Shown: piece by piece, positions 746 through 15,592 of the stretch
How the letters are laid out: each line of letters opens with the position of its first letter
Position numbering within the stretch: the stretch's first letter is position 1
Source of the DNA: a virus
Virus record (IMG/VR): IMGVR_UViG_3300017917_002656
Span: 1 to 35,848 of that record
DNA: 35,848 bases
Strand: one strand, 5' to 3'
Made by a program: the position numbers and the translations under genes
The notes under the pieces: model-generated
What the model was told of the DNA's origin: nothing
The model's database searches: none
What the model saw: only the letters and a program-made list of their open reading frames with translations

Positions 746-2683
746 ATGAGCGCAATATTAAAAATGAGAGTTCCTTTCTTTAGAAAAAAAGAAAGCGGTG
801 GTACTGACGGTAGAGCAACCTTCTATTTAGCCCAATCAGTTAATTATTTACCAGCGGCAAACCAAACAGTAACGGTAACTCACACAAATGTGAGAGGTAC
901 TGCTTTTCAAACCTATTTGAATAACAAATCAACAAATACCTTAACAGCCAAATTTGTTGAATATAACATCGATAATACAACAACCGCACCAGTAAACACG
1001 GACGGTTTTAATTATTATATGACGTTACAGTATACCGATCTTAGTTTATCCACTTATATCAACGGTGGTGACTGTAACGGTTATATTGAGTATGATGTGA
1101 ACCCAACGACATTAAGTGTACTCAAACCAGTTGAAACTCCAGTTGTTGTTTCTGAATCAATACCTTATGATTTATTTGACGGATACAACATCTTGACAAA
1201 TATTGTTACTGGTGGTACAATTCCAACAACAGGTATTACCAGAGGTATGCTTGTAAAAAGAGAAGAAGGTAATACTATATTTGCCAACTTATTAAAGAGT
1301 TTGAATTTACCTGTAACCGAGTTGGATTTGATGAAGTACAAAAGAAGTCAGCTTGGTACGAGTTCATTAGCTACTGGTACAACTTATGATTACTTACTGG
1401 GTGGGCAGAAATACAACTGGACACCATGGACAAGTACAGGATCAACATCTGGCGTAACATTATCAGTACACCCAACAAGTGGTTATACTGGTGAATACTA
1501 CGGTACCGTACTACAAACAATTGGTAGTTATGAATTTATGTCATCTAATAAAGCGGTATTGCCAGTTGAAAATGATATGTATTTGATATTCGAAATACCG
1601 AATAACGAATACGGCGAAATCATTGACGGTAAAACATTCAGAATGACTTTACCTTATTACGCTGCAACTGGCGTTACTGGTAATACACTTATTAACCAGG
1701 TATTTGGTTCATATACTGGATATTCATCAACACCAACACAACTTAGCATATATGGTACATATAACAAATCTGGTTACTCAAGAGGTATCAATATGGATAA
1801 AGCCCTATCTGAGACCGATTTGTCTGTACAAGATATTGGTGTAAGACCCGATCTAAACAATTCAACATTTAATGATACGACCTATCAAAGTAATGTGGTA
1901 TTATTATTCTCAGATACGATAAAAGCGCCATATGATAGTAATTTCTCATCGTGGAGTGGTGGTACTGTGGATTTGATGGAAGGTATAAAAGTATTCAGTG
2001 AAACAGCTGGTATTGAAAAACCAACTTATGATTACTTCAACGATCAGTGCGTTGGTTTTGTGGCCCTGGATAAAGGATTTGTTGTGATTACACATCCATT
2101 AATTGTGGACTCATACTTCAAAAATGTATTCAACGGTACAATATCATCGAGCGGAACATGGAGTGGTGGTACTAAGGTTTATGATTACGGTACGTTATCA
2201 ACAGGAACCACAAGAGGTAAGGTTAAAACTGACCCAACAAAAATGATCACAACTGTGGATAACTCTAACTATGTATATTGGGACAGCTCACAGTTTATCT
2301 TTACTGGTTTAACTGGTACGTATAGCGGTATTACTTCAAATATTGAATATAAGAGTTATAATACTGAAAAATCGCTGAACATAGTTTGTTTAGCATCCGC
2401 TAACGAGTTCTTTAGGTCGACAAGTGATTCGGCGAAAGAATTGTTCGGATTAACCACACAGGGGTCAACAACATCTAAATATGGTTTGGAAATGAGTAAC
2501 TTACTCAACACACCAACATATGCCGACTTCCAAACGGGTAGTGATGAGCTATATCCTGTTATCATCACTGGTTTAGGATTACATGATGCAAATGGTAATT
2601 TATTGGCGATTTGTAAACCATCGCAGCCAGTTAAAAAGTATTGGTATGACGTAGTGTCATTCAACATAAAAATAAGACTATAA
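746..2683 (+). CDS. Large virion structural protein (tail/baseplate type)
   Basis: A 645-residue protein rich in Thr, Gly, Ser and Tyr, with no cysteine cluster, signal peptide or membrane segment. The composition is typical of phage tail sheath, baseplate or fibre proteins. The C-terminal segment (about residues 605-645, reading GLGLHDANGNLLAICKPSQP and then ending in alternating hydrophobic residues) resembles the C-terminal ends of large structural proteins in other phages, as far as I remember. Its length is close to that of T4-type sheath proteins, but I cannot see sheath-specific motifs. It ends the structural run; the next 10 bases lead into a truncated gene start. Confidence 0.6.
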   Translation: MSAILKMRVPFFRKKESGGTDGRATFYLAQSVNYLPAANQTVTVTHTNVRGTAFQTYLNNKSTNTLTAKFVEYNIDNTTTAPVNTDGFNYYMTLQYTDLSLSTYINGGDCNGYIEYDVNPTTLSVLKPVETPVVVSESIPYDLFDGYNILTNIVTGGTIPTTGITRGMLVKREEGNTIFANLLKSLNLPVTELDLMKYKRSQLGTSSLATGTTYDYLLGGQKYNWTPWTSTGSTSGVTLSVHPTSGYTGEYYGTVLQTIGSYEFMSSNKAVLPVENDMYLIFEIPNNEYGEIIDGKTFRMTLPYYAATGVTGNTLINQVFGSYTGYSSTPTQLSIYGTYNKSGYSRGINMDKALSETDLSVQDIGVRPDLNNSTFNDTTYQSNVVLLFSDTIKAPYDSNFSSWSGGTVDLMEGIKVFSETAGIEKPTYDYFNDQCVGFVALDKGFVVITHPLIVDSYFKNVFNGTISSSGTWSGGTKVYDYGTLSTGTTRGKVKTDPTKMITTVDNSNYVYWDSSQFIFTGLTGTYSGITSNIEYKSYNTEKSLNIVCLASANEFFRSTSDSAKELFGLTTQGSTTSKYGLEMSNLLNTPTYADFQTGSDELYPVIITGLGLHDANGNLLAICKPSQPVKKYWYDVVSFNIKIRL

Positions 2684-2693
2684 AAACAAACAA

Positions 2694-2759
2694 ATGATTA
2701 AAAAAGAGATACAAGAAGAATTTTACTTACTTGGACTTGATGTGTCAACCAAAACATAA
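2694..2759 (+). pseudogene. Truncated 5' copy of the downstream RuvC-like gene
   Basis: This 21-codon frame encodes MIKKEIQEEFYLLGLDVSTKT and a stop. It matches the first 20 residues of the RuvC-like protein at 3485, where YLLGLDVSTKT recurs at residues 10-20. The last 18 bases before the junction (2739-2756 versus 3527-3544) are identical, while the codons upstream differ by synonymous changes (Leu, Gly, Tyr). The match ends exactly where the RuvC frame would continue; an in-frame TAA follows at once. I read it as the left-behind original start of the resolvase gene, cut off by insertion of the GIY-YIG cassette. Confidence 0.85.
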
Positions 2760-2782
2760 TTCACACTTTGCTATTTTTCTTA

Positions 2783-2791
2783 CTATTTATA
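2783..2791 (+). promoter_or_regulatory. CTATTTATA motif before GIY-YIG gene 1
   Basis: The motif lies three bases upstream of the preferred ATG at 2795. The second endonuclease gene has the same motif at nearly the same distance. This supports a private promoter giving a very short or leaderless message, and it helps decide the start. Confidence 0.4.
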
Positions 2792-2794
2792 GTT

Positions 2795-3481
2795 ATGGAA
2801 AATAGCAATTTTATTTATGGTTTAATTGACCCTATAACCAACCAATTAAGGTATGTTGGTAAGAGCATAAACCCCAAAAATCGTTTGAGAAAACATATTT
2901 CAGAAAGAAACCTTCATGATAGTTATAAAGATAGATGGGTTAGAAAATTATATAACCTTGATTTACGTCCAGAATTAATTATTATTGATGTGATTAATAA
3001 CGAAACGGATGATTGGAGATTTTGGGAGGTGTTTTACATATCTTATTTTAAGTCTATTGGTTGTAATTTAACTAACGGTACTCTTGGTGGTGATCAACCA
3101 CCATCAACAAAGGGTAGGAAGCAATCACTTGAGACAAGAACGAAAATGTCAAAAAGTAAGTCAGGTAAACCACCAGCGTGGTGGGTACCTGGGACGATAA
3201 GAAGTGAAGAACATAAACAAAATTTATCCAAAAGTTGTAAAGGGCGGGTTTCGCCTAATAAAGGTAAAAAATATTCGGAGGAACATAAAGCTAAATTAGT
3301 TAAAGCATCAACAGTCAATAAACCAGTTTTACAATTAGATTTGGATGGTAACTTAATAAAAGAATGGCCTTCTAAAAATTTAGCACAAAAAACATTAAAA
3401 ATAAGACATATATCCGAATGCTGTAATAACCTTAAAAATTTTAAAACAGCGGGTGGGTATAGATGGGTATATAAAAATTAA
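2795..3481 (+). CDS. GIY-YIG homing endonuclease (Seg-like) with NUMOD repeats
   Basis: A 228-residue freestanding homing endonuclease that should cut DNA of related phages lacking the cassette. The GIY-YIG nuclease domain covers residues 6-100: IYG at 7-9, YVG at 20-22, an Arg/His pair at 30 and 34, the likely catalytic Glu at 78 and the NGTLGGD segment at 94-100. Two or three NUMOD3-type DNA-binding repeats follow (about 105-175, pattern KGRKQS, then RSEEHK, then YSEEHK). A NUMOD1-like helix-turn-helix (about 178-225, QLDLDGNLIKEW, ending GGYRWVYKN) completes it. I chose ATG 2795 because an upstream TTG start at 2768 would add a poly-Phe/Leu leader and because the second endonuclease starts at the equivalent place. 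It ends three bases before the RuvC-like gene. Confidence 0.93.
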   Translation: MENSNFIYGLIDPITNQLRYVGKSINPKNRLRKHISERNLHDSYKDRWVRKLYNLDLRPELIIIDVINNETDDWRFWEVFYISYFKSIGCNLTNGTLGGDQPPSTKGRKQSLETRTKMSKSKSGKPPAWWVPGTIRSEEHKQNLSKSCKGRVSPNKGKKYSEEHKAKLVKASTVNKPVLQLDLDGNLIKEWPSKNLAQKTLKIRHISECCNNLKNFKTAGGYRWVYKN

Positions 3482-3484
3482 TAT

Positions 3485-4090
3485 ATGAAAAAAACTAACG
3501 ATAACGAATACTATCTTTTAGGTTTAGATGTGTCAACCAAAACAATTGGCGTGTCACTTTTTGATAATAAGGGACAACTACTGGAATTAACCCACATCTC
3601 ACCAAAGGCTAAACCAGTACCTGATTCAAAAACAGAAGAATTGATTAAAAAGGCGGATCTTTATGCTGAGTTCATTAAGAAATACGCCAAAATGAAAACC
3701 AAGATTAAACACGTTGTTATCGAGGAACCTTTATTGCGTTCAAACAACGTTAATACGGTGGGTACACTACTTAGATTTAATGGTATGGTAACCAAGATAA
3801 CATATGATATCATTGGGGTAGTACCAGAATATGTGAGTACATACGAAGCCAGAAAAAATGCCTTTCCTGAGTTAATGCAACCAGGATCGAATAAAAAACC
3901 AGTACTATTCGGTGCTTACTCGAAAGACACCGATAAAAAAATGGTAATCTGGGAGAAGGTATCGGAAAGAGACCCAAACATCAAATGGTTATTGGATGCT
4001 AAGGGTGCCTTGAAAAAAGAAAATTTCGATATGGCTGATGCATACACTGTATGTTTGTCATATATGAAAATGAAAAAGATCATCGAGTAA
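3485..4090 (+). CDS. RuvC-like Holliday junction resolvase (RNase H fold)
   Basis: This 201-residue protein should cleave branched recombination or replication intermediates. The acidic residues expected for a RuvC/RNase H fold are in the expected order: Asp15 in LLGLDVSTKTIGV, Glu80 or Glu81 in VVIEEPLL, and Asp182 with Asp185 near the C-terminus in DMADAY. It is somewhat longer than bacterial RuvC. The gene heads the recombination block and ends one base before the promoter of the primase gene. Its first 20 codons appear twice, here and in the stub at 2694, so the present start seems to have been supplied with the GIY-YIG insertion. Confidence 0.88.
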   Translation: MKKTNDNEYYLLGLDVSTKTIGVSLFDNKGQLLELTHISPKAKPVPDSKTEELIKKADLYAEFIKKYAKMKTKIKHVVIEEPLLRSNNVNTVGTLLRFNGMVTKITYDIIGVVPEYVSTYEARKNAFPELMQPGSNKKPVLFGAYSKDTDKKMVIWEKVSERDPNIKWLLDAKGALKKENFDMADAYTVCLSYMKMKKIIE

Positions 4091-4122
4091 TTTGGTTTTT
4101 TTGTTTTTTTTGCTTATTATTG
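4091..4122 (+). promoter_or_regulatory. Bacteroidota-type promoter for the primase gene
   Basis: TTTG at 4091-4094, a 20-base spacer and TATTATTG at 4115-4122 resemble the host primary-sigma consensus (TTTG, then TAnnTTTG). The predicted start of transcription is only about ten bases before ATG 4140, which supports that start codon over the upstream TTG at 4092. Confidence 0.6.
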
Positions 4123-4139
4123 ATGAAAACCATTCAAGC

Positions 4140-5111
4140 ATGTTTTTCTCAGACGATAAGCACGAAGAACTCATAAGTTTATTGGAGGATTTTCTTGGGG
4201 AACCAAGAAAACACTATGAAAGCAGAGGACAGATCAGTTTTGACTGTCCTAACTGTTCTTATGAGAAAGGCCTTGATCATGATGGTAAAGGTAACCTTGA
4301 AATAAACTATGAATTGGGTGTGTATAACTGTTGGGCTTGCGCTGAAACAGATGGTACCAAAGGTAAGTTATATTACCTATTCAAACAATACGCTGATAAA
4401 GAAACTTTAAAGAGATTTATAGATGGCCGTTTCGTGTTCGAAAGCGACTTTTATGAAGATGAGGAGGTTGAAACAAGTAAACAGGTTTTAAAGTTACCAG
4501 AAGGGTTCTACTCTTTAGCTGGTAAACAAGGACATACTTTATTTGTTTCAGCCTTTAATTATTTGTATTCCAGGGGTATTACCGATGAAATAATAACCAA
4601 ATATAAGCTTGGTTTTTGTCTGGATGGAAAATACCAGAATAGGATTATCATACCGTCCTATGATATTGACGGTGACCTAAATTATTTCGTTGCCCGATCT
4701 ATCAGTAAGCAAAATACCAAATATAAGTACCTAAACCCAGATACTGATAAAACCAGCATTATTTTCAATGAAAATATGATTAACTGGGATAGGCCCATAT
4801 TCCTGGTGGAGGGTGCTTTTGATCATATCGTAGTACCAAACAGCATACCTTTACTGGGTAAGAAGATGTATGATAAATTACTGGATACGATATACCATAA
4901 CGCTAAGAGTTATGTCATAATAGTACTGGATTCTGATGCTAATGATGACGCTGTTAAGATATACAATAAACTCGATTCGGGTAAGTTAATGAATAGGATT
5001 CTCATCAACAGAATGCCAGACGAACACGATATCTCGAGTTTTAACCAAACCTACGGCCAGGGTAACTTAAAAGAATGGTTGAAAAATAAAACAACAAGAA
5101 TAATTGATTAA
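4140..5111 (+). CDS. DnaG-type DNA primase (zinc finger plus Toprim)
   Basis: A 323-residue protein, probably the phage primase making RNA primers for the lagging strand. An N-terminal zinc ribbon has CPNC at 36-39 and CWAC at 64-67. A Toprim domain follows in the second half: FLVEGAFDH supplies the conserved Glu, and VIIVLDSDAND supplies the DxD metal site. It is shorter than bacterial DnaG and lacks an evident helicase-interaction domain, like other phage primases. I prefer ATG 4140; the in-frame TTG at 4092 overlaps the promoter and would add a poly-Phe/Leu leader. The downstream nuclease gene begins three bases after the stop, so the two are probably co-transcribed. Confidence 0.87.
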   Translation: MFFSDDKHEELISLLEDFLGEPRKHYESRGQISFDCPNCSYEKGLDHDGKGNLEINYELGVYNCWACAETDGTKGKLYYLFKQYADKETLKRFIDGRFVFESDFYEDEEVETSKQVLKLPEGFYSLAGKQGHTLFVSAFNYLYSRGITDEIITKYKLGFCLDGKYQNRIIIPSYDIDGDLNYFVARSISKQNTKYKYLNPDTDKTSIIFNENMINWDRPIFLVEGAFDHIVVPNSIPLLGKKMYDKLLDTIYHNAKSYVIIVLDSDANDDAVKIYNKLDSGKLMNRILINRMPDEHDISSFNQTYGQGNLKEWLKNKTTRIID

Positions 5112-5114
5112 CGA

Positions 5115-5852
5115 ATGATAAAATTAATACATGAAACACATACCTACGTAAACGACAAGTTCCCGAACATGCAATACACTTCGGTAACGACGATGTTAGG
5201 TAAATACAAAGAAAAGTTTGACGAAGATTTTCACGCTCAAAGAGTAGCGGATAGAAAAGGAATAACAAAAGAAGAGGTAATTGCTGAATGGAGAGAAATC
5301 AACCGCCTGGCGAATGAATACGGAACGAATTTACATGCCATTTTAGAGCGTTTCTTACTCGCACCGCATAGAATATACTCCCCGAGAGATGAGTACGAAA
5401 AAACGGTTATAAATGCCTTTAAAAAGGTATGTTCTGATGAGAAGTTAACCCTGATTAATTCAGATCGTCTAAAACCAGAGTACATCATGTCCTACGAGTT
5501 TAACGATAGGGTGGGTATCGCTGGTACATCCGATATCATCGAAGATATTGATTATGATAAATTCAATGTATGGGATTTTAAAACAAATAAGAAATTTGAA
5601 TATGAGAATGCTTATGGTGAATATTTACATTTCCCAGTAAACCATTTGACTCACTGCCAGTATAACGATTATACGTTACAGTTGTCAATTTACGGCGTAA
5701 TGTATGAAAGGGAGACTGGACGTAAGTTCAATAGAGCAGGTTTATTCTATTGGGATAAATATTCTCAAACGTTTAAGCTAATTCCAGTAGTCTATATGAA
5801 ACGTGAGGCAGAAATGTTGATTGATCACTACAAACTTAAAATGATTGCATGA
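5115..5852 (+). CDS. PD-(D/E)XK nuclease (RecB/Cas4-like exonuclease)
   Basis: A 245-residue nuclease of the RecB/lambda-exonuclease-like class. A conserved His lies at residue 74 in GTNLHAILERF. The acidic metal ligands are Asp140 in GIAGTSD and Asp154 with Lys156 in VWDFKTNKK, followed by the QLSIYGVMYE helix (about 192-201), which matches the QxxxY motif of the family. There is no C-terminal cysteine cluster, so it is not an iron-sulfur Cas4. It lies between the primase and the SbcD-like gene and overlaps the latter by four bases, so it probably works in end resection during recombination-dependent replication. Confidence 0.85.
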   Translation: MIKLIHETHTYVNDKFPNMQYTSVTTMLGKYKEKFDEDFHAQRVADRKGITKEEVIAEWREINRLANEYGTNLHAILERFLLAPHRIYSPRDEYEKTVINAFKKVCSDEKLTLINSDRLKPEYIMSYEFNDRVGIAGTSDIIEDIDYDKFNVWDFKTNKKFEYENAYGEYLHFPVNHLTHCQYNDYTLQLSIYGVMYERETGRKFNRAGLFYWDKYSQTFKLIPVVYMKREAEMLIDHYKLKMIA

Positions 5853-6649
5853 TAACAAAAATAGCACATATAGCGGATATCCATTTTAGGAATATCCAAA
5901 GACATTTAGAATTCAGAGCGGTATGCTCTAATTTCATTGACCAGATGAAAAAAACACAACCCGATAGGATTGTTATTGCTGGTGATATCGTACACTCAAG
6001 AAACCAGATAAGTCCTGAATTAGTAAATGAAGTATCTTGGTTTTTATCTGAATGTTCGGCGATAACCGAAAAGGTAATTATCATACCAGGTAATCACGAC
6101 ATTGTTGAACAAAACAAAGAGCGTATGGATGCTTTAACACCGATCATTAAGGCGCTGGATTTGAATAATATTCACTATTATACTAAATCCGATGTGATTG
6201 AAGATGAAAACGTGGCCTGGGCGGTATATTCCATATTTGATAGTCACGCAACACCAGAACAGTTACACCATAACTCGTATAACGGTAAAAAGAAAATCGG
6301 ATTGTTTCACGGTGTAATAGTTGGTGCTGTTAATGAAATGGGTTACAGTTTTACCCATGGTGTTGACGTTGAAAAGTTCGCCGACTGTGATATTGTTTTA
6401 TGTGGTGATATACACAAAAGACAAATATTGAAAACCAAATCAGGTATCGATGTTATCTATCCTGGTAGTATGGTACAACAAAATTATGGTGAAACGGTAT
6501 CCCAACACGGATATGGTGTCCTTACCATTACTGATAAGGGTTTTGATTATAAACTTTATGATATCGATAATCCTGTGAAATACTTAACGTTTAAGATCAC
6601 GGATTTCTCGGACATAGAAGAAGGTTGTGAAATGTTTACCAATGCCTAA
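5849..6649 (+). CDS. SbcD/Mre11-like recombination nuclease subunit (T4 gp47-like)
   Basis: A 266-residue calcineurin-like metallophosphoesterase that should pair with the SbcC-like ATPase encoded two genes downstream to process DNA ends. The phosphoesterase motifs are clear: HIADIH (Asp10, His12), IAGDIVH (Asp46), IPGNHD, LFHGVIVGAV, and CGDIHKRQ. The length is typical of phage gp47 rather than full bacterial SbcD, with little capping domain. The start overlaps the preceding stop by four bases. Order and identity match the T4 gene 47-46 pair except for a small gene placed between them. Confidence 0.92.
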   Translation: MITKIAHIADIHFRNIQRHLEFRAVCSNFIDQMKKTQPDRIVIAGDIVHSRNQISPELVNEVSWFLSECSAITEKVIIIPGNHDIVEQNKERMDALTPIIKALDLNNIHYYTKSDVIEDENVAWAVYSIFDSHATPEQLHHNSYNGKKKIGLFHGVIVGAVNEMGYSFTHGVDVEKFADCDIVLCGDIHKRQILKTKSGIDVIYPGSMVQQNYGETVSQHGYGVLTITDKGFDYKLYDIDNPVKYLTFKITDFSDIEEGCEMFTNA

Positions 6650-6926
6650 AGTCAGTAAAAAACTACTGGATGAGATTGATGCGTATTGTAAGATAAATGA
6701 AATTACGGACGCAGATAAATTTTTAAATGATCTGATTGTGAATGCATTTTCTGTACTTAAGTACGGCAATAAACCAGACATAGAGATTAAACCAAAACAA
6801 ACCGTAAAAACGGAACCAGTGGAAGACCTTCCGCAACCAGAGATTAAACAACCAGACAATACCATTACCGTAACGAACAAAAGAATAGAAAATGACAAAT
6901 ACAATGATATATACGACGACTTCTAA
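6642..6926 (+). CDS. Small protein between the SbcD- and SbcC-like genes
   Basis: About 94 residues if it starts at ATG 6642 (99 from ATG 6627). The first 45 residues are helical and basic-acidic mixed (PKVSKKLLDEIDAYCKIN, then FLNDLIVNAFSVLKYG), and the rest is a Pro/Lys/Glu-rich, probably disordered tail. The pattern could suit a short DNA-binding or adaptor protein, but I do not recognise a family. It overlaps the SbcD-like stop by eight bases and the SbcC-like start by 35 bases, so its translation is probably coupled to both, pointing to a role with that complex. Confidence 0.65.
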   Translation: MPKVSKKLLDEIDAYCKINEITDADKFLNDLIVNAFSVLKYGNKPDIEIKPKQTVKTEPVEDLPQPEIKQPDNTITVTNKRIENDKYNDIYDDF

Positions 6927-9285
6927 ACCAAAAAACGATGATATTTATGATAGTAACAACCATATAAAGGTTATATGGGAGGATACTTTGGATAATCACT
7001 CGCAGGTAAAGGAGAAACAAATTGAAAAATACTTTCAAAATAAGTACAAGACCAATAAAGTCAAAGTTATCTTTAAGCCAATTATCAGTAAGAATTCTGA
7101 ACTTGTGGCTGAGGGTGGAGCAGATGCTTCTGAGCTCGTTTTAGATGAAAACTACCAGAAGAAACTAATTGAGCAGTATCTCGTTGATAATAAAATCGAG
7201 ATTAATACGGCCCATCTCATCAAACTTGACAGTTCGGTTAATATTGAATTGGAGAACTACAAAGAACAGACAAATAGATATAAGAAATTTAAGATCAAAG
7301 AGATTGAATTCTCTAATTTCTTGTCATATGGTTCTGGTAACAAACTCAAATATGAAAACAAGAACGGTATTACATCAGTAATATCTGACCCAGCTAACTA
7401 CGGCGGTAAAACAACCATGACTGTGGATTTGCTGTTATTCCTATTCTTCGGTACCACAACAAAAACCGATAAGAATGAGGAAGTATTTAACCGTTTCCTT
7501 GACTCCGATTTGGTTGAAGTGAAGGGTAAAGTGGAAATTGAGGGCGATGACTACATCATTAAAAGAACCATCACCAGAAAGAAATCTAAAGATGGTTCAT
7601 ATAGTTGTAAAGGTGATGTGGACTTCTACCAGGTATTACCTCGTGGCGGTGTAAAACAACTCAATGGTGAACAAAGGAAGTATACAGATGAGTTAATTAA
7701 GACGTATGTCGGCACTTACGATGATTTCTTGATTACCATCCTAACCACTGGCGATAATCTCGATGATTTGATAAAGACCAAACCAACAGAGCGTGGTAGG
7801 ATATTGACCAGGTTTATTGGACTTGAATTCTTCCGTGAGAAGGAAAAGATTGCTAAGAAGAAATATACCGACTGGAAAGAAAAGTCAAAACTATACCATA
7901 ACAACAGCCAAGAGATCCTGGCTAAAATCACTGTGGAAGAAGACCACATCAAACAGTATCAAGAAATGCTGATTGGGTTAAATGCGAAACTGAATGAGGT
8001 AAAAACCAAAATAACTGAACTGACAGATGAATCAGAAAAATTATATAAAAAACGATATAACGATATCGATACCGAACTCTACAAATCAAGTGAAGAAAAC
8101 ATCGTTACTGGTATCCAAAAGCTCGAAAGTCTTATCAAAGACAAAGAAGACGGCATCAGAAACCTTATCGATTCTATGCCAGAACCTAAAACTGAGTATG
8201 ACATTGATTTATACGGTACTCTCAAAGGGGAGCTTCGAGATTACACAGAACGAGAGATAAAGACCAAGGTTGAAATACAAACCATTGAGTCAACTATCGA
8301 CATGTTAAAGAACAGCGAGATATGCCAAACTTGTAAAAGAGCCCTGGATGATGTTGACCATAGTGATGAAATTGATAAAAATGAAGCACTACTCGAACAG
8401 AAGAAAGAATCACTTGAAACCACTCAAGAGATTATAAAGATAGCTAATAACAAGATAGAAGACCTTGATAAGGTAAAAGTTGACTGGGATACGTACAACA
8501 GGAACAACCTATTGATTGAGAAGAGCCGTCTTGAGTTGAAAGCGTACCAGGATAGTTTGGTACGTGGTAACGACAAGCTCAAGAAGTACAGGGATATAAA
8601 GGATATGGTTGAAAAGAACCAAATCATCGACACAGATATTCAAAAAATAAAATTTTCTTTGAATTCTTTGAATGATGAAAAAGAATCCGTATCTTTACAA
8701 ATAAATGGTGCTGAGAGAGATATCCTCACCTCTAAAGGTAAAATAGAGGGGTATAATGCACTACTCAAAGAGTTGAAGAGCGAGGAAATGATAGACCACA
8801 TCTTTAAGGTTTACTTGGATATTTACGGGAAGAACGGTATCTCTAAGATGGTATTAAGTACCATGATACCTCTCATCAACAGTCATCTTAAGATACTGCT
8901 TGCGGATAGCTGCGAGTTCGTCCTCGAAATGCGCATGAATGAGAAGGGTGAGGTTGAGTTCTGGATGGTTGATAGCGAAACTGGTGTTGAAAAACCACTT
9001 AACGCTGGTTCTGGTTATGAGAAAACCGTAAGTTCATTGGCACTTAGGTGTGTACTGAGTAAAGTATGTTCATTACCTAAACCTAATATCATAGTATTTG
9101 ATGAGGTTACTGGAAAAGTTTCCAACCAAAACCTCGAAAAGGTCGGTCTATTCTTTGAGAAACTAAAACAGTTTTTCGAACACATATGGATTATTAGTCA
9201 CAATCCGCTGATACAGGATTGGGCCGACCATAGAGTCCTTGTTAAAAAGGAAAATAATATTTCATCACTAATAGACACCATATAA
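6892..9285 (+). CDS. SbcC/Rad50-like ATPase (T4 gp46-like) with N-terminal extension
   Basis: A 797-residue SMC-type ATPase, the partner of the SbcD-like nuclease in DNA end processing. After an unusual ~130-residue N-terminal extension comes the usual start of the ATPase (FKIKEIEFSNFLSYG). The Walker A region is ISDPANYGGKTTM with Lys173; it lacks the usual first glycine but keeps the Asn and the GKT core. Long coiled coils flank a zinc hook, CQTC at 478-481. The C-terminal half has a signature-like NAGSGYEKTVSSLALR, Walker B IIVFDEVTGK (Asp737, Glu738) and a His switch IISHNP. The gene overlaps its upstream neighbour by 35 bases and touches the next gene at its stop. Confidence 0.92.
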   Translation: MTNTMIYTTTSKPKNDDIYDSNNHIKVIWEDTLDNHSQVKEKQIEKYFQNKYKTNKVKVIFKPIISKNSELVAEGGADASELVLDENYQKKLIEQYLVDNKIEINTAHLIKLDSSVNIELENYKEQTNRYKKFKIKEIEFSNFLSYGSGNKLKYENKNGITSVISDPANYGGKTTMTVDLLLFLFFGTTTKTDKNEEVFNRFLDSDLVEVKGKVEIEGDDYIIKRTITRKKSKDGSYSCKGDVDFYQVLPRGGVKQLNGEQRKYTDELIKTYVGTYDDFLITILTTGDNLDDLIKTKPTERGRILTRFIGLEFFREKEKIAKKKYTDWKEKSKLYHNNSQEILAKITVEEDHIKQYQEMLIGLNAKLNEVKTKITELTDESEKLYKKRYNDIDTELYKSSEENIVTGIQKLESLIKDKEDGIRNLIDSMPEPKTEYDIDLYGTLKGELRDYTEREIKTKVEIQTIESTIDMLKNSEICQTCKRALDDVDHSDEIDKNEALLEQKKESLETTQEIIKIANNKIEDLDKVKVDWDTYNRNNLLIEKSRLELKAYQDSLVRGNDKLKKYRDIKDMVEKNQIIDTDIQKIKFSLNSLNDEKESVSLQINGAERDILTSKGKIEGYNALLKELKSEEMIDHIFKVYLDIYGKNGISKMVLSTMIPLINSHLKILLADSCEFVLEMRMNEKGEVEFWMVDSETGVEKPLNAGSGYEKTVSSLALRCVLSKVCSLPKPNIIVFDEVTGKVSNQNLEKVGLFFEKLKQFFEHIWIISHNPLIQDWADHRVLVKKENNISSLIDTI

Positions 9286-9917
9286 TGGATTTCCTACTTT
9301 TTAAATTAAAGTATCATATTTGGGAGAACGTAAGTAAACTCACAAAGTCCCGTAAGCGAGAGTATATGTTATTCTTCCTGGGTAAATACCCAGAGAATTT
9401 CAGGCACGGTATTACTGCTATTATTGACTCTGATTCCCTTGTTAGGTTTAGCATCGGTCAATCAGTCATAATAGTACGCTTTACCAGCAAGAAAAAGATC
9501 AAAGAGATCAGAGACATATTTAACCGTGTGTATAGTGGCTACGTAGATAGCTACATGTTATTCGAAGTGAATGACAGTAATTTCGCTAAAGGACTATGTG
9601 CGGCACATTACAATCACCTGTATGATTTAAACTATTTCAAGTTTACAACCAATGAGGCCCTGGATAAAGTACAAAACTTTATCACGTCTGTGAACCAGAT
9701 GAGGTCTGAGATGTTGGAATTTGTAAACCAACAGATGGCTATAATTCAGGAAGAGGAAGGACTACTTGATAATAACCCAACAGACCAAGACGAACGAGAA
9801 CATAAATTGAGCATGGATGACATCAATCCGATACTGGATAAAATTAAAGACCATGGGATGGACAGTCTTACAGAAAGGGAAAAACAGATTTTAAAAAAAT
9901 ACGCTAAAAATGACTAA
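9285..9917 (+). CDS. Uncharacterised protein between SbcC-like and sigma genes
   Basis: A 210-residue protein with no clear family over most of its length. Residues 1-135 look globular (alternating beta and helix, with SVIIVRFTSKKKIKEIRDIF). Residues ~135-165 are acidic. The last ~30 residues (ILDKIKDHGMDSLTEREKQI and a basic end) resemble a short C-terminal helical module, LDKI-x-G-x-x-SLT-x-x-E, which I recall from other Bacteroidota proteins. Its start overlaps the SbcC-like stop by one base, and its end overlaps the sigma gene by eight bases. That coupling suggests a role in replication, recombination or late transcription. Confidence 0.7.
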   Translation: MDFLLFKLKYHIWENVSKLTKSRKREYMLFFLGKYPENFRHGITAIIDSDSLVRFSIGQSVIIVRFTSKKKIKEIRDIFNRVYSGYVDSYMLFEVNDSNFAKGLCAAHYNHLYDLNYFKFTTNEALDKVQNFITSVNQMRSEMLEFVNQQMAIIQEEEGLLDNNPTDQDEREHKLSMDDINPILDKIKDHGMDSLTEREKQILKKYAKND

Positions 9918-10701
9918 ACAAAACACGGCACACTGGATCGACCAAAGAGAAATTATCACGTACTTACAAGATGTTAGGAAGTACCCAACATTAACCAGAG
10001 AAGAGGAATTAGAGTTGATTCAGCTGATCAAATCAGGTTGTCAGAAATCGAAAGACCGTCTGATTTATTCCAATCTTAGATTCGTAATCACTATGGCAAA
10101 ACAATATGTTGGCCAGGGGTTAGACCTAAACGACCTTATCTCCGAGGGCAACTACGGCCTTATTAAAGCTGCGGAAAGATATGATTATGACCAGACAGAC
10201 GTTAGGTTCTTATCATATGCTGTATGGTGGGTTAGACAGAGCATCCTCCAATCGTTACATGAAAATTCAAGGTCAATTCGTTTACCCGTTAATAAAATTA
10301 ACGAGTTGAACGAATTCAGGAAAACGTTACAACAAGAAACGTATGACATAGATCCAAATGCGGCACTTATGTTGCCAACCGTTGGACAACTTGACCAACC
10401 GATTGATGATGAGGGTAACTCGTTCTACGACATCATCCAGGATGATAGTTGTGAAAGGGTGGACTTAAAGTTCCCCGATGACAGAACACAGCTTATCTTA
10501 AAGTTAAAAACTTTATTGAATAAGTTGAATGAGTCTGAAAGATACGTTATAACCAAGTATTTTGGTTTAGACGGTGAGCCACTGACGCTTCAAGATATCT
10601 CAGATGATCTGGAATTAACCAAAGAAAGGGTTAGACAGATCAAAGAGAAGGGTATCAAAAAGTTGAGGTATAATTGCGCTGGATTATTTGAATTATTGTA
10701 A
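9910..10701 (+). CDS. Phage-encoded RpoD-like sigma factor
   Basis: A 263-residue group 1/2-type sigma-70 factor. Region 1.2 is at the start (DVRKYPTLTREEELELI). Region 2 follows: RLIYSNLRFVITMAKQY, LDLNDLISEGNYGLIKAAER and FLSYAVWWVRQSILQ, the last covering the -10 recognition helix. Region 4 is at the C-terminus (LNESERYVITKYFGL, then the helix-turn-helix LTLQDISDDLELTKERVRQI). Region 3 is short and diverged and there is no region 1.1, as in Bacteroidota primary sigma factors. Region 2 is so like a host primary sigma that it probably reads similar promoters, such as those listed in this window. In T4 the late sigma gene also lies near genes 46 and 47. Confidence 0.92.
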   Translation: MTKQNTAHWIDQREIITYLQDVRKYPTLTREEELELIQLIKSGCQKSKDRLIYSNLRFVITMAKQYVGQGLDLNDLISEGNYGLIKAAERYDYDQTDVRFLSYAVWWVRQSILQSLHENSRSIRLPVNKINELNEFRKTLQQETYDIDPNAALMLPTVGQLDQPIDDEGNSFYDIIQDDSCERVDLKFPDDRTQLILKLKTLLNKLNESERYVITKYFGLDGEPLTLQDISDDLELTKERVRQIKEKGIKKLRYNCAGLFELL

Positions 10702-10718
10702 TTTCAGTGATATTTATT
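10687..10718 (+). promoter_or_regulatory. Promoter-like site before the small membrane protein gene
   Basis: TTTG at 10687-10690, a 20-base spacer and TATTTATT at 10711-10718. The -7 element departs from TAnnTTTG, but the spacing is the same as at the other sites, and ATG 10733 is 15 bases downstream. Confidence 0.45.
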
Positions 10719-10732
10719 GTTAAAGAAAACTT

Positions 10733-11032
10733 ATGAAAAAAATTAAAAATTTTTTTAATGAGAGTGGCTACCTTTTGGTAGTCGCTTTCATGTTTTTACT
10801 GACGGTACATAATTGTAACCAGAGCGGTAAAATGAAGTCAATCAAGAAAGAAATCGTTAACGTAAGACATGCTAATGATAGTATGGCTACGCTTTTAATG
10901 AATGAAATCAAGATAGAAGGTTTGAAATCTGAGCTTAGAATGATTCAGGCCACAGATAGAAAAATACTCGATGTACAAAGACAAAACCAGATCGAGGCTG
11001 AAATAAAGAGTATCCAAAACGCCGCTAAGTAA
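10733..11032 (+). CDS. Small membrane-anchored coiled-coil protein
   Basis: A 99-residue protein with one hydrophobic segment at about residues 12-27 (GYLLVVAFMFLLTVHNC), followed by a charged, helical, probably coiled-coil region. The cysteine after the hydrophobic stretch (HNCNQ) is not a good lipobox, so a single-pass membrane anchor is more likely than a lipoprotein. The architecture recalls phage spanins or small i-spanin-like proteins, but nothing proves that. An 11-pair hairpin lies inside the start of the gene (10763-10786). It abuts the ArdC-like gene, whose ATG overlaps its stop by one base. Confidence 0.65.
   Translation: MKKIKNFFNESGYLLVVAFMFLLTVHNCNQSGKMKSIKKEIVNVRHANDSMATLLMNEIKIEGLKSELRMIQATDRKILDVQRQNQIEAEIKSIQNAAK
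10763..10786 (+). other. Strong hairpin inside the 5' coding region
   Basis: AGTGGCTACC and GGTAGTCGCT pair around a TTTT loop (ten pairs, two of them G-U). A long T run precedes it and a short one follows. It sits ten codons into the gene, in the sense orientation, downstream of a promoter-like site, so it could lower read-through or translation. It may also be chance. Confidence 0.35.
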
Positions 11033-12714
11033 TGTCAGTAATTATAGAAAACGTAAAAATCGTATCAAAAACGGGTACAACCAAAACAGGTAAACCGTAT
11101 AAGAATCTAATATTATCTTCTGATAATGCGGATCTTGGGGCGAGAAACGCCGAAAATGGTTGGATTGCCAACACACTTAAAATTACAAGTAAGTATGAAC
11201 CAGCGTTTTCTGAATTTAAGCAGCAATTTCCAGGCGTTGACGTTCCCACCAGGATGGTGACAACCGATAAGAATGTTTGGGGTTGGGGTTATTGGATTAA
11301 TAACCCAGAAGATGAGGCAAAGAAAATTGAAGGTATTAAAAAGTTAGCCCAGTTCCTAAATAAAGAAAGGAGCGTGGATAATACTGGCGATGAAACCATT
11401 GATAAGTTTGAAGGTTTTGAGGATGTTCAGGCTTTCATCGGTAGACTCAGAGAGATGCTGACTGAAATCAATATCCAGGATGAAGCCAAACAAAAAGAAC
11501 TTACACGAGGTATTGAAAACTTCATTAAGGAACTCGCACAATCAGTTGACGCTGTTGCGGCCAATGAAAAACTGGCTGAATTCTTTGAATGGAGAAGAAA
11601 ATTCCATACATTCTCGTTGAATAACACAATCCTTATTTTTGTGCAGAAACCTAACGCCACCCAGGTAGCGTCTAAGACAACATGGAAAAAATTAGGTTTT
11701 ACACCAAAAGAAGGTGCTACTCAGATTTGGTTATGGAGACCACATCTTAGACCAAAGAGCCCCGAATTTAAGGAGAAAATACGTAAAGAATTCATTGCAA
11801 AATACGGCAAGGGCGGTGTTTTATCTCCGAAGTATGAAAAGATGTTAAAAGATGAGTTGGATAAACCGATGGTTGATACAACAAAGAGACCAATTTTATA
11901 TCCGACTTATGACATAACAGATGTTGTGAATGAGGCTGGTGAATCTGGAGCCGAAAAAGCGCCACAAAAACCAGAACTTATGTGGTCAAATAATACTCCT
12001 AACGAGATTGGTGATAAGATAGCGGAAGCAATGTATAAGATTATACCAGCCTACGGTATTAAATTATCATTCTATAAACCAACTGGCGGTGAAAAGGGTT
12101 ATTCGGCGAGTGGGGATATACACCTATCAGATGAGCTGGTGGGTATAGCAAAAGCATCAACAGCTGTGCATGAATTTGCCCATGAAATAATGCACCAGAG
12201 CTACGTGAAAAGCGTTGCCGCTAAGGGTCAAAAAACGAGTGAAAAATCTAAACTCATCCAAGCCGCCTATGTCGGTAGAGATGTATCAAAAACACTCGAA
12301 TTACAAGCCGAGGGTGTGGCATATGTTGTATTAAGACAATTCGGTATTAACGAAGCTGAACACGCTGTAAACTATATCGCCTTATGGAATGGTGACCATG
12401 ATAGTGTTATGGGTAATCTTGACATTATCACAAGAACAGCAAACTTAATTATCAACGAGATAAATTCTCATTATGATACCACGGTTGACGATACGGGTGA
12501 TGAAACCGAATTTGGTGATTATGAGGCGGAACCAGAGACAGAAACACCAGTGACCGAAAACGAGGGTGGTGATATACCACATGCATCCACTGTAACAAGA
12601 GGTGATGTTGCTAAGATGTTGGGACTTAAAACAACCAAAGAACCAGACCATATCAAAGAACTTGAAACAACATTGAACGAAGCAAAACAACTTATTAAAT
12701 CAATAATAATATGA
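11032..12714 (+). CDS. ArdC-like protein with a zinc metallopeptidase motif
   Basis: A 560-residue protein resembling ArdC-type antirestriction proteins. Residues 1-80 (ENVKIVSKTGTTKTGKPYKN and beyond) read like a small beta-rich, possibly OB-like domain. Residues ~170-240 carry the ArdC N-domain pattern (FHTFSLNNTILIFVQKPNAT, then TTWKKLGFTPKEGATQIWLW), which in ArdC binds single-stranded DNA. A metallopeptidase domain has HEFAH at 380-384, with Glu427 in ELQAEGVAYV as the likely third zinc ligand. A long acidic C-terminal tail follows. In plasmids, ArdC protects incoming DNA from restriction; here it could guard phage DNA or process a host factor. Its stop overlaps the start of the truncated gene at 12711. 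Confidence 0.8.
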   Translation: MSVIIENVKIVSKTGTTKTGKPYKNLILSSDNADLGARNAENGWIANTLKITSKYEPAFSEFKQQFPGVDVPTRMVTTDKNVWGWGYWINNPEDEAKKIEGIKKLAQFLNKERSVDNTGDETIDKFEGFEDVQAFIGRLREMLTEINIQDEAKQKELTRGIENFIKELAQSVDAVAANEKLAEFFEWRRKFHTFSLNNTILIFVQKPNATQVASKTTWKKLGFTPKEGATQIWLWRPHLRPKSPEFKEKIRKEFIAKYGKGGVLSPKYEKMLKDELDKPMVDTTKRPILYPTYDITDVVNEAGESGAEKAPQKPELMWSNNTPNEIGDKIAEAMYKIIPAYGIKLSFYKPTGGEKGYSASGDIHLSDELVGIAKASTAVHEFAHEIMHQSYVKSVAAKGQKTSEKSKLIQAAYVGRDVSKTLELQAEGVAYVVLRQFGINEAEHAVNYIALWNGDHDSVMGNLDIITRTANLIINEINSHYDTTVDDTGDETEFGDYEAEPETETPVTENEGGDIPHASTVTRGDVAKMLGLKTTKEPDHIKELETTLNEAKQLIKSIII

Positions 12715-12803
12715 ATAAAGAAAACGTAACTAAGAATTTTATAATCGGTACATTCGTAACGTTATATGTTTTAGTTTCATTGATATCAACAATCTTTTAT
12801 TAA
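12711..12803 (+). pseudogene. Truncated 5' copy of the downstream membrane protein gene
   Basis: This 30-codon frame starts inside the ArdC-like stop (ATGA overlap) and ends in TAA. Its residues KNFIIGTFVTLYVLVSLIST match the start of the membrane protein at 13596 (DKFVIGSFVVLYVLTSCIST). Homology stops after the shared 11 bases ATATCAACAAT (12783-12793 versus 13665-13675), and three codons later a stop ends the frame. The two copies differ at many synonymous and some replacement sites, like orthologues from different phages. I interpret it as the original gene start, cut off by the second GIY-YIG cassette. Confidence 0.82.
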
Positions 12804-12811
12804 ACAAAACA

Positions 12812-12820
12812 CTATTTATA
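12812..12820 (+). promoter_or_regulatory. CTATTTATA motif before GIY-YIG gene 2
   Basis: CTATTTATA ends three bases before ATG 12824, the same arrangement as at the first endonuclease gene. No TTTG is found at the usual upstream distance. Confidence 0.4.
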
Positions 12821-12823
12821 TGT

Positions 12824-13618
12824 ATGGATACTATTACATATAAAATATACGGGGTTTTGAATCCAAAGTCAAATAAGCACTATGTAGGTAAAACTAAACA
12901 CTCATTATTAAAACGAAAAAAAGAACATATTGCAGCCGCTAACCGAAAAACGGGTTCGCATAAGTTTTATGACTGTATTCTTGTTGAGGGTGATAATCTT
13001 GTCTGGTTTATTATTGAGGATGGGTTGACGGAAGAAAATGTTAATGAGCGTGAGCAATATTATATTTTTCTTTATGATTCTTTCAATAACGGTTATAATG
13101 GTACATTGGGTGGTGATGGTGGTGATACTTGGTCAAATAATGATAAGTTAGAACAGTTCAAAGAGAAACGGAGATTAGAATGGTTGGGTGAGAAAAATCC
13201 AAATTACGGCTCACCGTTACCTGAAGAACAAAAATCAAAAATGATCACTTCAAAAAAAGGCATACCTATCCATAGTCTTGAATATCGTTTTAAACTTAGT
13301 GAACGAATGCGCCAAGAATGGCATGAGGGTAAACGTATAAATTATTTAAGTGATTACGCTAACAATCGTTTAGGTTCTGTCTTGAATGACGAACAAAAAA
13401 GTAAAATTGGTGAGGGGGTTAAAAACTCAGAAAAATATAAAGCGAGTATAAAAACGAGGGCGATTACTAAACGTAAAAAATATAACGAACGAATAGAAAA
13501 ATTTGGTTCTTATTTAAACGAGAATAAGTCAAAGGAAGAAATTATGGCTCTTATGGAGATAAAAGAACCAACATATTACAAATATAAGAAAGATTATGAA
13601 TCAAAAATTAATAGATAA
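12824..13618 (+). CDS. GIY-YIG homing endonuclease, second cassette
   Basis: A 264-residue freestanding homing endonuclease. The GIY-YIG domain has IYG at 8-10, YVG at 20-22, Arg31 with His35, a likely catalytic Glu at 77 in EREQYY and the NGTLGGDGGD segment at 92-101. NUMOD3-type stretches follow (GEKNPNYGS, PEEQKSKM, then NDEQKSKIGEGVK), with a basic helical C-terminus (KSKEEIMALMEIKEPTYYKY) that may be a helix-turn-helix. It resembles the first endonuclease in design, but its C-terminal DNA-binding region differs, which fits a different target gene. Its last 23 bases also encode the first codons of the membrane protein at 13596 in another frame. Confidence 0.92.
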   Translation: MDTITYKIYGVLNPKSNKHYVGKTKHSLLKRKKEHIAAANRKTGSHKFYDCILVEGDNLVWFIIEDGLTEENVNEREQYYIFLYDSFNNGYNGTLGGDGGDTWSNNDKLEQFKEKRRLEWLGEKNPNYGSPLPEEQKSKMITSKKGIPIHSLEYRFKLSERMRQEWHEGKRINYLSDYANNRLGSVLNDEQKSKIGEGVKNSEKYKASIKTRAITKRKKYNERIEKFGSYLNENKSKEEIMALMEIKEPTYYKYKKDYESKINR

Positions 13619-14453
13619 GTTTGTTATTGGTAGCTTTGTCGTACTGTATGTGTTAACAAGCTGCATATCAACAATACACGTAATTGACTTCTTTAGGTTA
13701 TCTAACCCGAATTGGCTGGCTACCACACTCGCAATAGCGTTTGAAGTGGGTGCGGCTGCTTCATTAGCGTCAATTATAGCTCTTAAAAAGATGAATAAGG
13801 GTATTGTGTGGGCATTATTCTTTATGTTAACCCTTATGCAAGCCATGGGTAACACATACTATGCTTATACGCACCTGGTTAATTACCAAAGCTGGATTGA
13901 ACTATTCGGTTTGGTTGATAGTGAGGTAATTGAACAGAAACGTATATTATCTCTTGTTTCTGGAGCCATACTACCATTGGTAGCTCTTGGGTTTATCAAA
14001 TCTTTGGTGGATTATATCAAACCCGATGAAGAACAACCCAAAACACCCGATACAATTCCAGCACCCACCTTCCCTGCTGATTTAATCTTAGTTAATAAAG
14101 GTGACGAAGAGGTGGATATAACAGATCTTAAAGAAGCCAAAGTGGATTATGACGCTGTCATCAAAGCGGGGCAAGAAGCACAACATGCCAAAATAATGGA
14201 AGTTCTCAATAGAAAAGCTAAAGAAAGGGAAGAAAGGGGTGAAACATATGAAGATGAACCAACAGCATTAGCTAACTCTTTCCATACCGAACGGATCACG
14301 GAAGATGAATTAGAAGCTGAGGTGGAATCTGAACCAGAAGATGAAGTAATACCAGAAAGTCAAGAGCCTATTGTTGAAGAAAATAAAGAGGAAGATCCTA
14401 AAATGAAGATCCTCAACAATATAAAGGTTTTTGTTAATGGTGAAGCTAAATAA
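13596..14453 (+). CDS. Four-helix membrane protein with acidic cytoplasmic tail
   Basis: A 285-residue protein with four predicted membrane segments (about 9-29, 40-63, 69-92 and 115-136). A ~145-residue charged, strongly acidic, probably disordered tail follows (clusters such as EDEVIPESQEPIVEENKEED). I do not recognise the family. The hydrophobic segments contain no obvious catalytic or transport motif. The start codon lies inside the end of the second GIY-YIG gene; a diverged copy of its first 28 codons remains at 12711, so the present start was probably brought by the cassette. The gene overlaps the amidase-like gene by about 17 bases. A role in host membrane takeover or lysis timing is possible but unproven. 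Confidence 0.78.
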   Translation: MNQKLIDKFVIGSFVVLYVLTSCISTIHVIDFFRLSNPNWLATTLAIAFEVGAAASLASIIALKKMNKGIVWALFFMLTLMQAMGNTYYAYTHLVNYQSWIELFGLVDSEVIEQKRILSLVSGAILPLVALGFIKSLVDYIKPDEEQPKTPDTIPAPTFPADLILVNKGDEEVDITDLKEAKVDYDAVIKAGQEAQHAKIMEVLNRKAKEREERGETYEDEPTALANSFHTERITEDELEAEVESEPEDEVIPESQEPIVEENKEEDPKMKILNNIKVFVNGEAK

Positions 14454-15054
14454 TGATTATCTTATTGAAAATGATAATATAAGACAATACAACACAATAA
14501 AGGAAAAAATCGTATTGATCAATACGTTATTACCTGCCGAAGACCATTTTAAGAAATTAAAATTAAGATACGGTGGTAAATACGATAAAGTACCAGCTTT
14601 CACAATAGATAGATCGGGTGTAATACACCAACATTTTAACCCAACATATACGTCAAAAATATTGGATAACGATAGTTTGGATCGCCAGGCTATCGTTATT
14701 TCGTTAGAAAATGTGGGTTGGTTGGATTATGATTCCGTTTTTAATGATTATTGCGATTGGAGGGGTATTAGGTACGATGAAGCGGTTATAGAGATACCCT
14801 GGCGAGGAAAAAGATTCTGGGCAACATATTCTGATGAACAATTTTCGTCTTTAACTGAATTAATAGACTATTTATGTAGAGAGCATTCTATTAATAAAAA
14901 ATTCATTGGGAATAACGTTATAAGTGCTATTAAAAACTATAAAGGGATTATAAATCGAAGTAATTTTAGTAAAAATCATTTTGACCTAACACCCGCTTTT
15001 AATTTTGAAAAGTTAACAAAAATATTAAATAATGAATACGAAAAAGCCAATTAA
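14437..15054 (+). CDS. N-acetylmuramoyl-L-alanine amidase-like protein (endolysin candidate)
   Basis: A 205-residue protein with the layout of amidase_2/PGRP-type enzymes: a beta strand with IDRSGVIHQHFNP (the position of the RDG-x-I-x-Q motif), a central AIVISLENVGWL segment, YSDEQFSSLTELIDYLCREH (the Q-x-x-x-L-x-x-L helix), and a late NRSNFSKNHFDLTPAFNFEK that corresponds to the H-x-x-x-x-x-K-x-DPG-x-x-F region. The first zinc His of the usual HHT pattern is not obvious, and the DPG is changed to DLTP, so activity is uncertain. There is no signal peptide; release would need a holin. ATG 14437 is preferred over TTG 14431. It overlaps the next gene by 23 bases. Confidence 0.72.
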   Translation: MVKLNNDYLIENDNIRQYNTIKEKIVLINTLLPAEDHFKKLKLRYGGKYDKVPAFTIDRSGVIHQHFNPTYTSKILDNDSLDRQAIVISLENVGWLDYDSVFNDYCDWRGIRYDEAVIEIPWRGKRFWATYSDEQFSSLTELIDYLCREHSINKKFIGNNVISAIKNYKGIINRSNFSKNHFDLTPAFNFEKLTKILNNEYEKAN

Positions 15055-15592
15055 TGAGTATGACCAGATTAGGAACATGCTCGGAAAGATAAGATTGATA
15101 CAAGAAGACACCATGGGTGCTGGGGCCCCAATTAATCCACAAGGTCAAATGGGTCAACCAGGTAAGATGGGTCAACCAGGTAAGATGGGTCAACCAGCCC
15201 AACAAACACCATCAGGTGAAAAAATACAATTTGATGATATCACAACTGTTGGTTTTATGAATGGTGACGTTCGTGACGATATTAAAAACAATGTAAAGAC
15301 CGCAGTTGGGGCTTTCATTAAAGCAACTGGGTTATTGATGGACACCGTTAATATAACGGTTGAAGATGAGAAAATCAATATAACAACTGACACCTTAAAA
15401 AACCCAGCAATGGGTGCTGTTAAATCGGTTACTTTTGATACGGATGAGGAGAGTCCTTATTTTGAATTGGCTTCTGGTAGACTCGATATTACCGCAGACT
15501 TCACTAATTTAATCCAGACAATATCACGCACATTTAACGATCCACAAGTGGGCAAAACGGCATTAATAACATCAACACAAGGAAATATATAA
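15032..15592 (+). CDS. Probable virion-associated protein with GQMGQPGK repeat
   Basis: A 186-residue protein. Residues ~1-25 are charged and helical, residues ~30-60 are a Gly/Gln/Pro/Met-rich low-complexity stretch with a six-residue repeat (MGQPGK), and residues 65-186 look like a compact alpha/beta domain (FDDITTVGFMNGDV, then VNITVEDEKINITTDTLK). No family is recognised. It is followed two bases later by a membrane-anchored protein gene. The repeat is collagen-like in spacing but far too short for a stable triple helix, so it is more likely a linker. Confidence 0.65.
   Translation: MNTKKPINEYDQIRNMLGKIRLIQEDTMGAGAPINPQGQMGQPGKMGQPGKMGQPAQQTPSGEKIQFDDITTVGFMNGDVRDDIKNNVKTAVGAFIKATGLLMDTVNITVEDEKINITTDTLKNPAMGAVKSVTFDTDEESPYFELASGRLDITADFTNLIQTISRTFNDPQVGKTALITSTQGNI
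15149..15197 (+). repeat. 18-base tandem repeat, 2.7 copies
   Basis: Two perfect copies of ATGGGTCAACCAGGTAAG (15149-15166 and 15167-15184) and a 13-base partial third copy. They encode MGQPGK units. Perfect identity suggests recent slippage. Confidence 0.9.

Follow-up and report, generated by a model that had tools for sequence, protein, structure and literature searches.

How can a homing endonuclease gene occupy a coding sequence other than within an intron or an intein, the textbook ways for such a gene to sit harmlessly in an essential gene? The question is raised by a stretch of viral DNA, positions 1 to 35,848 of the IMG/VR virus record IMGVR_UViG_3300017917_002656 (the window is this whole stretch of 35,848 nucleotides (nt)). 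Each of two GIY-YIG endonuclease genes in the window is flanked upstream by a stranded piece of a gene's 5' end (hereafter, stub) and downstream by that gene in intact form, an arrangement first proposed in a sequence-only reading of the window and confirmed here by direct reading, with stub-to-gene protein alignment scores of 69 for insertion 1 and 75 for insertion 2. The two targets are unrelated, as that reading had stated: one is a gene for a RuvC-like resolvase (ruvC), and the other encodes an unnamed protein with a hydrophobic N-terminus. The stretch before the nuclease ATG, given there as 30-38 bases, measures about 38 and 31 nt when counted from the end of the homology. We consider it probable that, in either case, a GIY-YIG homing endonuclease gene has been inserted at a fixed point of a coding sequence, together with a promoter-like linker of its own upstream and a replacement for the target's 5' end downstream.

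Among ten related phage records, G001 (320,934 bases) is the nearest over most of the window, mostly at 80-90% nucleotide identity in 400-nt bins, compared to about 55-80% for the other relatives. No match to endonuclease 1 or endonuclease 2 was found in G001. The layout of the two insertions is as follows (ORF, open reading frame).

746-2683, plus strand: gene upstream of insertion 1 (645 amino acids), 83-86% nucleotide identity to G001 (400-nt bins)
2694-2759, plus strand: stub 1, a 5' fragment of ruvC of 21 codons and TAA (ATG at 2694, codons MIKKEIQEEFYLLGLDVSTKT, TAA at 2757-2759, read from the sequence); homology stops at 2756
2757-2794, plus strand: linker 1, with the promoter-like ACTATTTATA at 2782-2791; a predicted hairpin (z about -4) covers the linker and the nuclease start
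2795-3481, plus strand: endonuclease 1 (228 amino acids; GIY-YIG and NUMOD3), from the ORF and domain matches
3485-4090, plus strand: intact target gene 1, RuvC-like resolvase (MKKTNDNEYYLLGLDVSTKTIG...), matching phrog_159 (E 1.2e-9), 95% amino acid identity to L003
3485-3544, plus strand: intact ruvC start, codons 1-20, the segment that stub 1 duplicates; start type as in G001
12711-12803, plus strand: stub 2, a 5' fragment of target gene 2 of 30 codons and TAA (ATG at 12711, codons MNKENVTKNFIIGTFVTLYVLVSLISTIFY, TAA at 12801-12803, read from the sequence); homology stops at about 12792
12793-12823, plus strand: linker 2, with the promoter-like ACTATTTATA at 12811-12820; the linker of L087 is similar by eye
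12824-13618, plus strand: GIY-YIG endonuclease 2 (264 amino acids)
13596-13673, plus strand: putative substitute start of target gene 2, 26 codons, the first 23 nt overlapping the nuclease ORF
13596-14453, plus strand: intact target gene 2 (285 amino acids; hydrophobic N-terminal part; no function assigned; MNQKLIDKFVIGSFVVLYVLTSCISTIHV...)

The origin of the parts can be traced at insertion 2. A cassette at the identical point is present in L087 and L088, contigs of the diverged phages G007 and G011, with the stub MQVENKITKNFIIGTFVTLYVMVSLISTNFC and a stop codon, a linker that ends in AACTATTTATATGT, a nuclease 70% identical in amino acid sequence to endonuclease 2, and the gene start MNQNLINKFVITTFVLLYILTSCIST; among 80 relatives of target gene 2, only these two contain the nuclease (the flank of L143 is too short to judge). 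When 16 genes and the 2 stubs are aligned by codon, each stub matches its own lineage, at 70/81 nt for the window stub against the native start of G001 and 75/84 for the L087 stub against L077. The bodies of the target gene follow their own lineages as well (299/369 for the window against G001 and 318/366 on the L087 side). The substitute starts of the window and L087, which share 61/78 nt, match the native starts of their own lineages at only 49/78 (window) and 48/78 (L087), and this drop in identity at the gene start differs from the body at Fisher p 8e-4 and 8e-7. With stub and body belonging to the own lineage, and nuclease and start in common, the shared unit therefore comprises the linker, the nuclease, and about 26 codons of gene start, and these three parts are the candidate mobile unit of cassette 2.

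At the ruvC site, the arrangement recurs in many phages. Relatives of nuclease 1 with 48-63% identity were found in other phages (L188-L203, L217), and an alignment-based scan added more, for a family (HEG1) of 13 clusters at 90% identity, the window included. All 12 clusters with an upstream flank contain a ruvC stub whose end lies 21-41 nt 5' of the nuclease ATG (p 0.0005-0.0085 for each cluster by shuffling), and the gene 3' of the nuclease is ruvC in all clusters except L201, where the contig ends. The ruvC fragment ends at LGLDVSTK(T); it is well kept in the window, L197, L202, L329, and L201, and decayed, often with loss of the ATG, in L189, L191, L196, L200, L217, L324/L326, and L328. 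Across 13 loci, the distance from the nuclease end to the target ATG ranges from a 29-nt overlap to a 19-nt gap, with a second candidate ATG at -53 in L191. In the L202/L329 group, both stubs (MEQSKxVLGLDVSTKT) are closer in protein sequence to the empty relative L042 (MEESNYVLGLDISTKT) than the gene starts are. Among 12 related records, diverged relatives of nuclease 1 are present only in G010, and nuclease 2 only in G007 and G011; in the ORF lists of 69 loci found via ruvC, the longer gene directly upstream is not such a nuclease.

Two members of this family show the trace of a recent transfer. When L197 and L202 were aligned from 690 nt upstream in 40-nt bins, identity was 50-78% per bin up to the stub, 90-100% for about 470 nt from the stub end (the linker and the first half of the nuclease), and about 60% thereafter; at the point where the stub stops, identity rises from about 60% to about 95%. 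Residues 1-150 of the two nucleases are identical at 142/150 positions, compared to 65% identity of the RuvC proteins. Given the sharp jump at the stub end, DNA therefore moved between the L197 and L202 lineages, with the left edge at the end of the stub. The two nuclease genes (L197:2483-3181 and L202:816-1613) combine near-identical catalytic halves with quite different C-terminal parts, which are probably DNA-binding, an apparent domain exchange within the nuclease.

The nucleases themselves are recognizable members of a homing endonuclease family. Endonucleases 1 and 2 match PF01541 with 22.8 and 28.5 bits (curated cut-off, 22.6) and the homing endonuclease family phrog_314 with E values of 3e-17 and 3e-19, respectively. 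In the HEG1 family, Y9, Y21, R31, E77, and N93 are invariant in 9 members, so that the catalytic residues are kept (endonuclease 2 was checked less fully); the catalytic roles of these Tyr, Tyr, Arg, Glu, and Asn residues are assumed here from I-TevI. An Rfam scan of the window gave no match at the gathering score and only a below-threshold snoRNA match at 2762-2874; therefore, there is no recognized intron in the window. The two genes do not qualify as Seg-type free-standing endonucleases, which lie between genes and disturb no coding sequence, given that 5' fragments of the next gene precede both.

The sequence-only reading had proposed a repeated class of start-replacing homing elements, to be sought by a scan for further pairs, and such pairs were found with other targets and in other phages (the ruvC family, L087/L088, and L223 with its empty counterpart L336). 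In a fixed stub test, 8/111 endonuclease clusters, from a sample that was not random, some of its members having been collected for their relationship to nuclease 1, scored at least 60, two of these being the window's own and L279 being set aside. Ordinary genes treated as inserts in the same alignment test served as the control, and 0/453 reached 60: the maximum was 46 among 43 genes in the sampled loci, and the only two of 412 genes in related loci that scored at least 60 were such nuclease genes themselves. Intact nuclease reading frames were present in 136/145 items; the 9 without one were dropped before clustering (L203, L216, L220, L232, L257, L271, L281, L287, and L296), although in L203 the stub is present. 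A sample of 80 loci collected via another nuclease alignment contained 74 with a reading frame, among them L223/L224 and the loci L259 and L229 described below. A third, unrelated target gene is preceded by a 5' stub in L223/L224, and the L223 stub (MKLLGVTNNKKILTSVAHYDY) is closer to the nuclease-free relative L336 (MKLLGVTNGKKILTSIAHYDY) than to the start of L223's own gene.

A mirror form at the 3' end of the target was found as well. In L177 (G031), at 754-2317 on the reverse strand of the locus, ruvC is followed by a GIY-YIG gene and then by a diverged fragment of the last 20 codons of ruvC; the other cases are L259, at the ribonucleotide reductase small chain gene (nrdB), and L229, at a P22-like portal gene. 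In 50 related phage records, there were 12 GIY-YIG matches, among them L177 and L180, the latter being the L087 cassette. The score of 41 for L179/L210 arises from a short overlapping ORF. L279, despite scores of 115 and 120, was rejected as a case of a stranded end: at L279:2188-4500, there are two tandem nuclease genes, each adjoining a small gene of similar sequence (MPTNKEKIEVFLTKIMKEK...), a pattern suggestive of joint movement of a nuclease and a small accessory gene.

These observations suggest the following mechanism, in which cutting, homing, expression, and a benefit in retention are steps that we infer. The endonuclease would cut an uninterrupted allele within its 5' coding region, and repair would copy the linker, the endonuclease, and the substitute start from the occupied donor. 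The recipient's own start would be left as a short frame that stops in the linker, and the recipient's gene body would continue in frame from the substitute start, which would keep the target complete with no need for splicing. For further spread, stub and gene body would then serve as two homology arms. Because the new start overlaps the nuclease end or lies close beside it, loss of the nuclease would put the target at risk. Site-specific cleavage of nuclease-free alleles with self-transfer would have its comparative support in the boundary between L197 and L202.

Several observations weigh against this interpretation. The right edge of the L197/L202 transfer lies inside the nuclease, and the substitute start is not included. 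At the nucleotide level, the L202 stub matches the L329 gene start (37/45) at least as well as it does L042 (36/48). Nor do the codon differences point to recoding of the substitute start against cutting: values of 3, 6, 8, and 3 of 8 compare with a mean of 5.13 for unrelated empty genes. Selected recoding is thus unsupported, and the substitute starts appear to be ordinary diverged homologs. Most of the endonuclease clusters have no such stub. Nine public phage records, with 12 nuclease genes between them, yielded none either; there, relatives of endonuclease 1 lack a stub and endonuclease 2 has no match. The two insertions also have features that fit other histories, and these are considered next.

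It is conceivable, if unlikely, that the nuclease gene landed in the spacer upstream of a native gene that was intact and was never interrupted, dragging along a fragment of the donor's target, so that the stub is the foreign piece. This fits insertion 1, where the ruvC start and body resemble those of G001, which has no nuclease, and the stub and the last codons of the upstream gene are more similar to clade B (the final ruvC codons of the stub are the same as in other family members). Because G001 shares the window's ruvC start and about 94% identity across the gene, above most other parts, the stub of insertion 1 may be the imported part; with the stub clade B-like and the intact ruvC G001-like, either of the two could be native at this insertion. 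The gene starts of L189, L191, L200, and L217 also resemble the starts found in relatives that have no nuclease, L035 for example. The same history is at odds with the native-type stubs and non-native starts at insertion 2, L087, and L223, and with the L197/L202 transfer, in which the transferred DNA starts after the stub, not before it. We regard as quite improbable a single ancient insertion per target followed by vertical inheritance and many losses, which would make the cassettes immobile relics. In its favor, the window and L087 differ by about 20-30% in stub, nuclease, start, and body alike, and several ruvC stubs are decayed. Because all the parts differ to this extent, one old insertion inherited by both lineages and later replaced by empty alleles also fits insertion 2; such a history and two separate acquisitions would give the pattern equally. 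Against immobile relics stand the recent transfer with its sharp left edge, the predominance of intact nuclease frames, and the requirement that each loss restore the native start.

The position of the insertions within coding sequence might also suggest a split gene, in which the stub peptide and the downstream product cooperate, as in split nrdA or T4 genes 39/60. This is very improbable, given that the downstream gene is of full length and holds the whole segment duplicated by the stub, and that the stub ATG is lost in several lineages. The window is a single virus-record contig, and the sequence-only reading had named assembly or recombination artefacts of one genome as a possible source of both stubs; with the same architecture in the separate contigs L087/L088, L191-L195, L197-L199, and L223/L224/L334/L335, we see practically no room for this explanation. 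Import of the whole 10-kb segment between the cassettes from another clade was rejected because the backbone is G001-like on both sides. A start-replacing homing cassette is the interpretation that we retain as probable.

The ACTATTTATA that the sequence-only reading had reported in both cassettes is indeed present, but it is not specific to them. The window contains 4 copies of the exact 10-mer; of its core TATTTATA there are 8 sense-strand copies and 2 on the opposite strand (2.6 expected), with the further copies also preceding ordinary genes, so that it was rejected as a mark of the element and is better seen as a general promoter-like element. In 10/12 listed nuclease genes, TATTTATA or TATTTATT starts 8-28 nt before the ATG. 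A predicted fold with z of -3 or lower at the nuclease start was found in 4/16 loci (window nuclease 1, L191, L087, and L259), compared to 2/42 ordinary genes, where the coordinates of L324, L326, and L328 are match starts rather than verified start codons. The hairpins predicted at window positions 2740-2830 (z about -4) and in L191 upstream of 2489 (z about -6.3) are strong; TATTTATA falls within or close to the loop, and the nuclease start within or next to the 3' arm. Such start-region hairpins are a lead only, in too few loci to build on. In T4, the ribosome-binding site of I-TevI is described as lying in a hairpin, with a promoter positioned such that late transcripts avoid the hairpin (PMC2988022; here and below, statements on cited sources refer to excerpts of them).

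Some further features of the neighborhood were noted. In nuclease-free G001, ruvC is preceded by an unusual 97-nt spacer (L003:4904-5000) that contains TATTTATAG; no clear nuclease remnant was seen in it, and it might be the deletion scar of a lost nuclease. The gene at 11032-12714, before stub 2, has no G001 counterpart over most of its length (window 11201-12800) and contains an HEFAHEIMH motif; we presume that its product resembles ArdC-type anti-restriction proteins. At 15032-15592 and 34900-35343, there are a short repeated GQPGKM-type stretch and a repetitive frame near the contig end.

The closest parallel is found in fungal mitochondria, where mobile ORFs replace the C-terminal ends of genes, with hybrids in Allomyces atp6 and in Glomus atp6, atp9, cox2, and nad3 (PMC3630166); alternative 3' ends are also described in PMC4019555. 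As in those hybrids, a nuclease lies in a gene, a foreign gene end is joined in frame, and the native end is stranded beyond the nuclease (PMC3630166), the stranded native end and the in-frame foreign end being those of insertion 2, L087, and L223. Unlike the fungal hybrids, in which the C-terminal end is replaced and the start untouched, the window has the start replaced, so that translation begins at the cassette, and the 3' form in phages is represented by L177, L259, and L229. Accordingly, the statement that such elements are not described as a class stands only in part: no description of 5' start replacement in phages was found in a literature search that left most subscription journals outside, whereas the principle of swapping gene ends is not new, since its 3' form has long been known in fungal mitochondria. 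The free-standing GIY-YIG Seg genes of T4 are likewise intron-less and located beside a probable target, with co-conversion of flanks expected, but they are listed between genes, and the excerpts describe no stranded partial target copy (the stem 'duplicat' is absent from the text; PMC2988022). Endonucleases within a conserved gene part are also known from mobE in Aeh1 nrdA and mobA in T4 genes 39/60 (PMC2988022, PMC5009743, PMC3014915); there the gene is split and two products reassemble, whereas the window keeps one whole gene and discards the stub. In phage homing endonuclease gene islands, nuclease genes similarly lie at the borders of exchanged DNA near essential genes, with no gene-end exchange and stranded stub described in the excerpts (PMC10448857). 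An argument on the risk of loss similar to ours has been made in T4 for embedded promoters (PMC2988022).

The chances seem to us evenly balanced that these cassettes represent a general class of end-swapping homing elements of phages, which would reside in conserved genes, with neither intron nor intein, by supplying a substitute end. The start-replacing branch would take over the translation start and so resist deletion, and some members may hide their start codon in a motif-enclosing hairpin, like T4 I-TevI. Such end-swapping elements would be a natural counterpart of engineered home-and-rescue drives. Beside introns and inteins, the loci described here show another way for a homing endonuclease to reside in phage genes, at gene starts and, at one ruvC site, in many lineages. 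The predicted consequences are genes of hybrid make-up, phage genomes in which stubs and start codons are misannotated, and nucleases that are hard to lose. With both empty and occupied alleles of the same site known, cutting and protection are directly testable.

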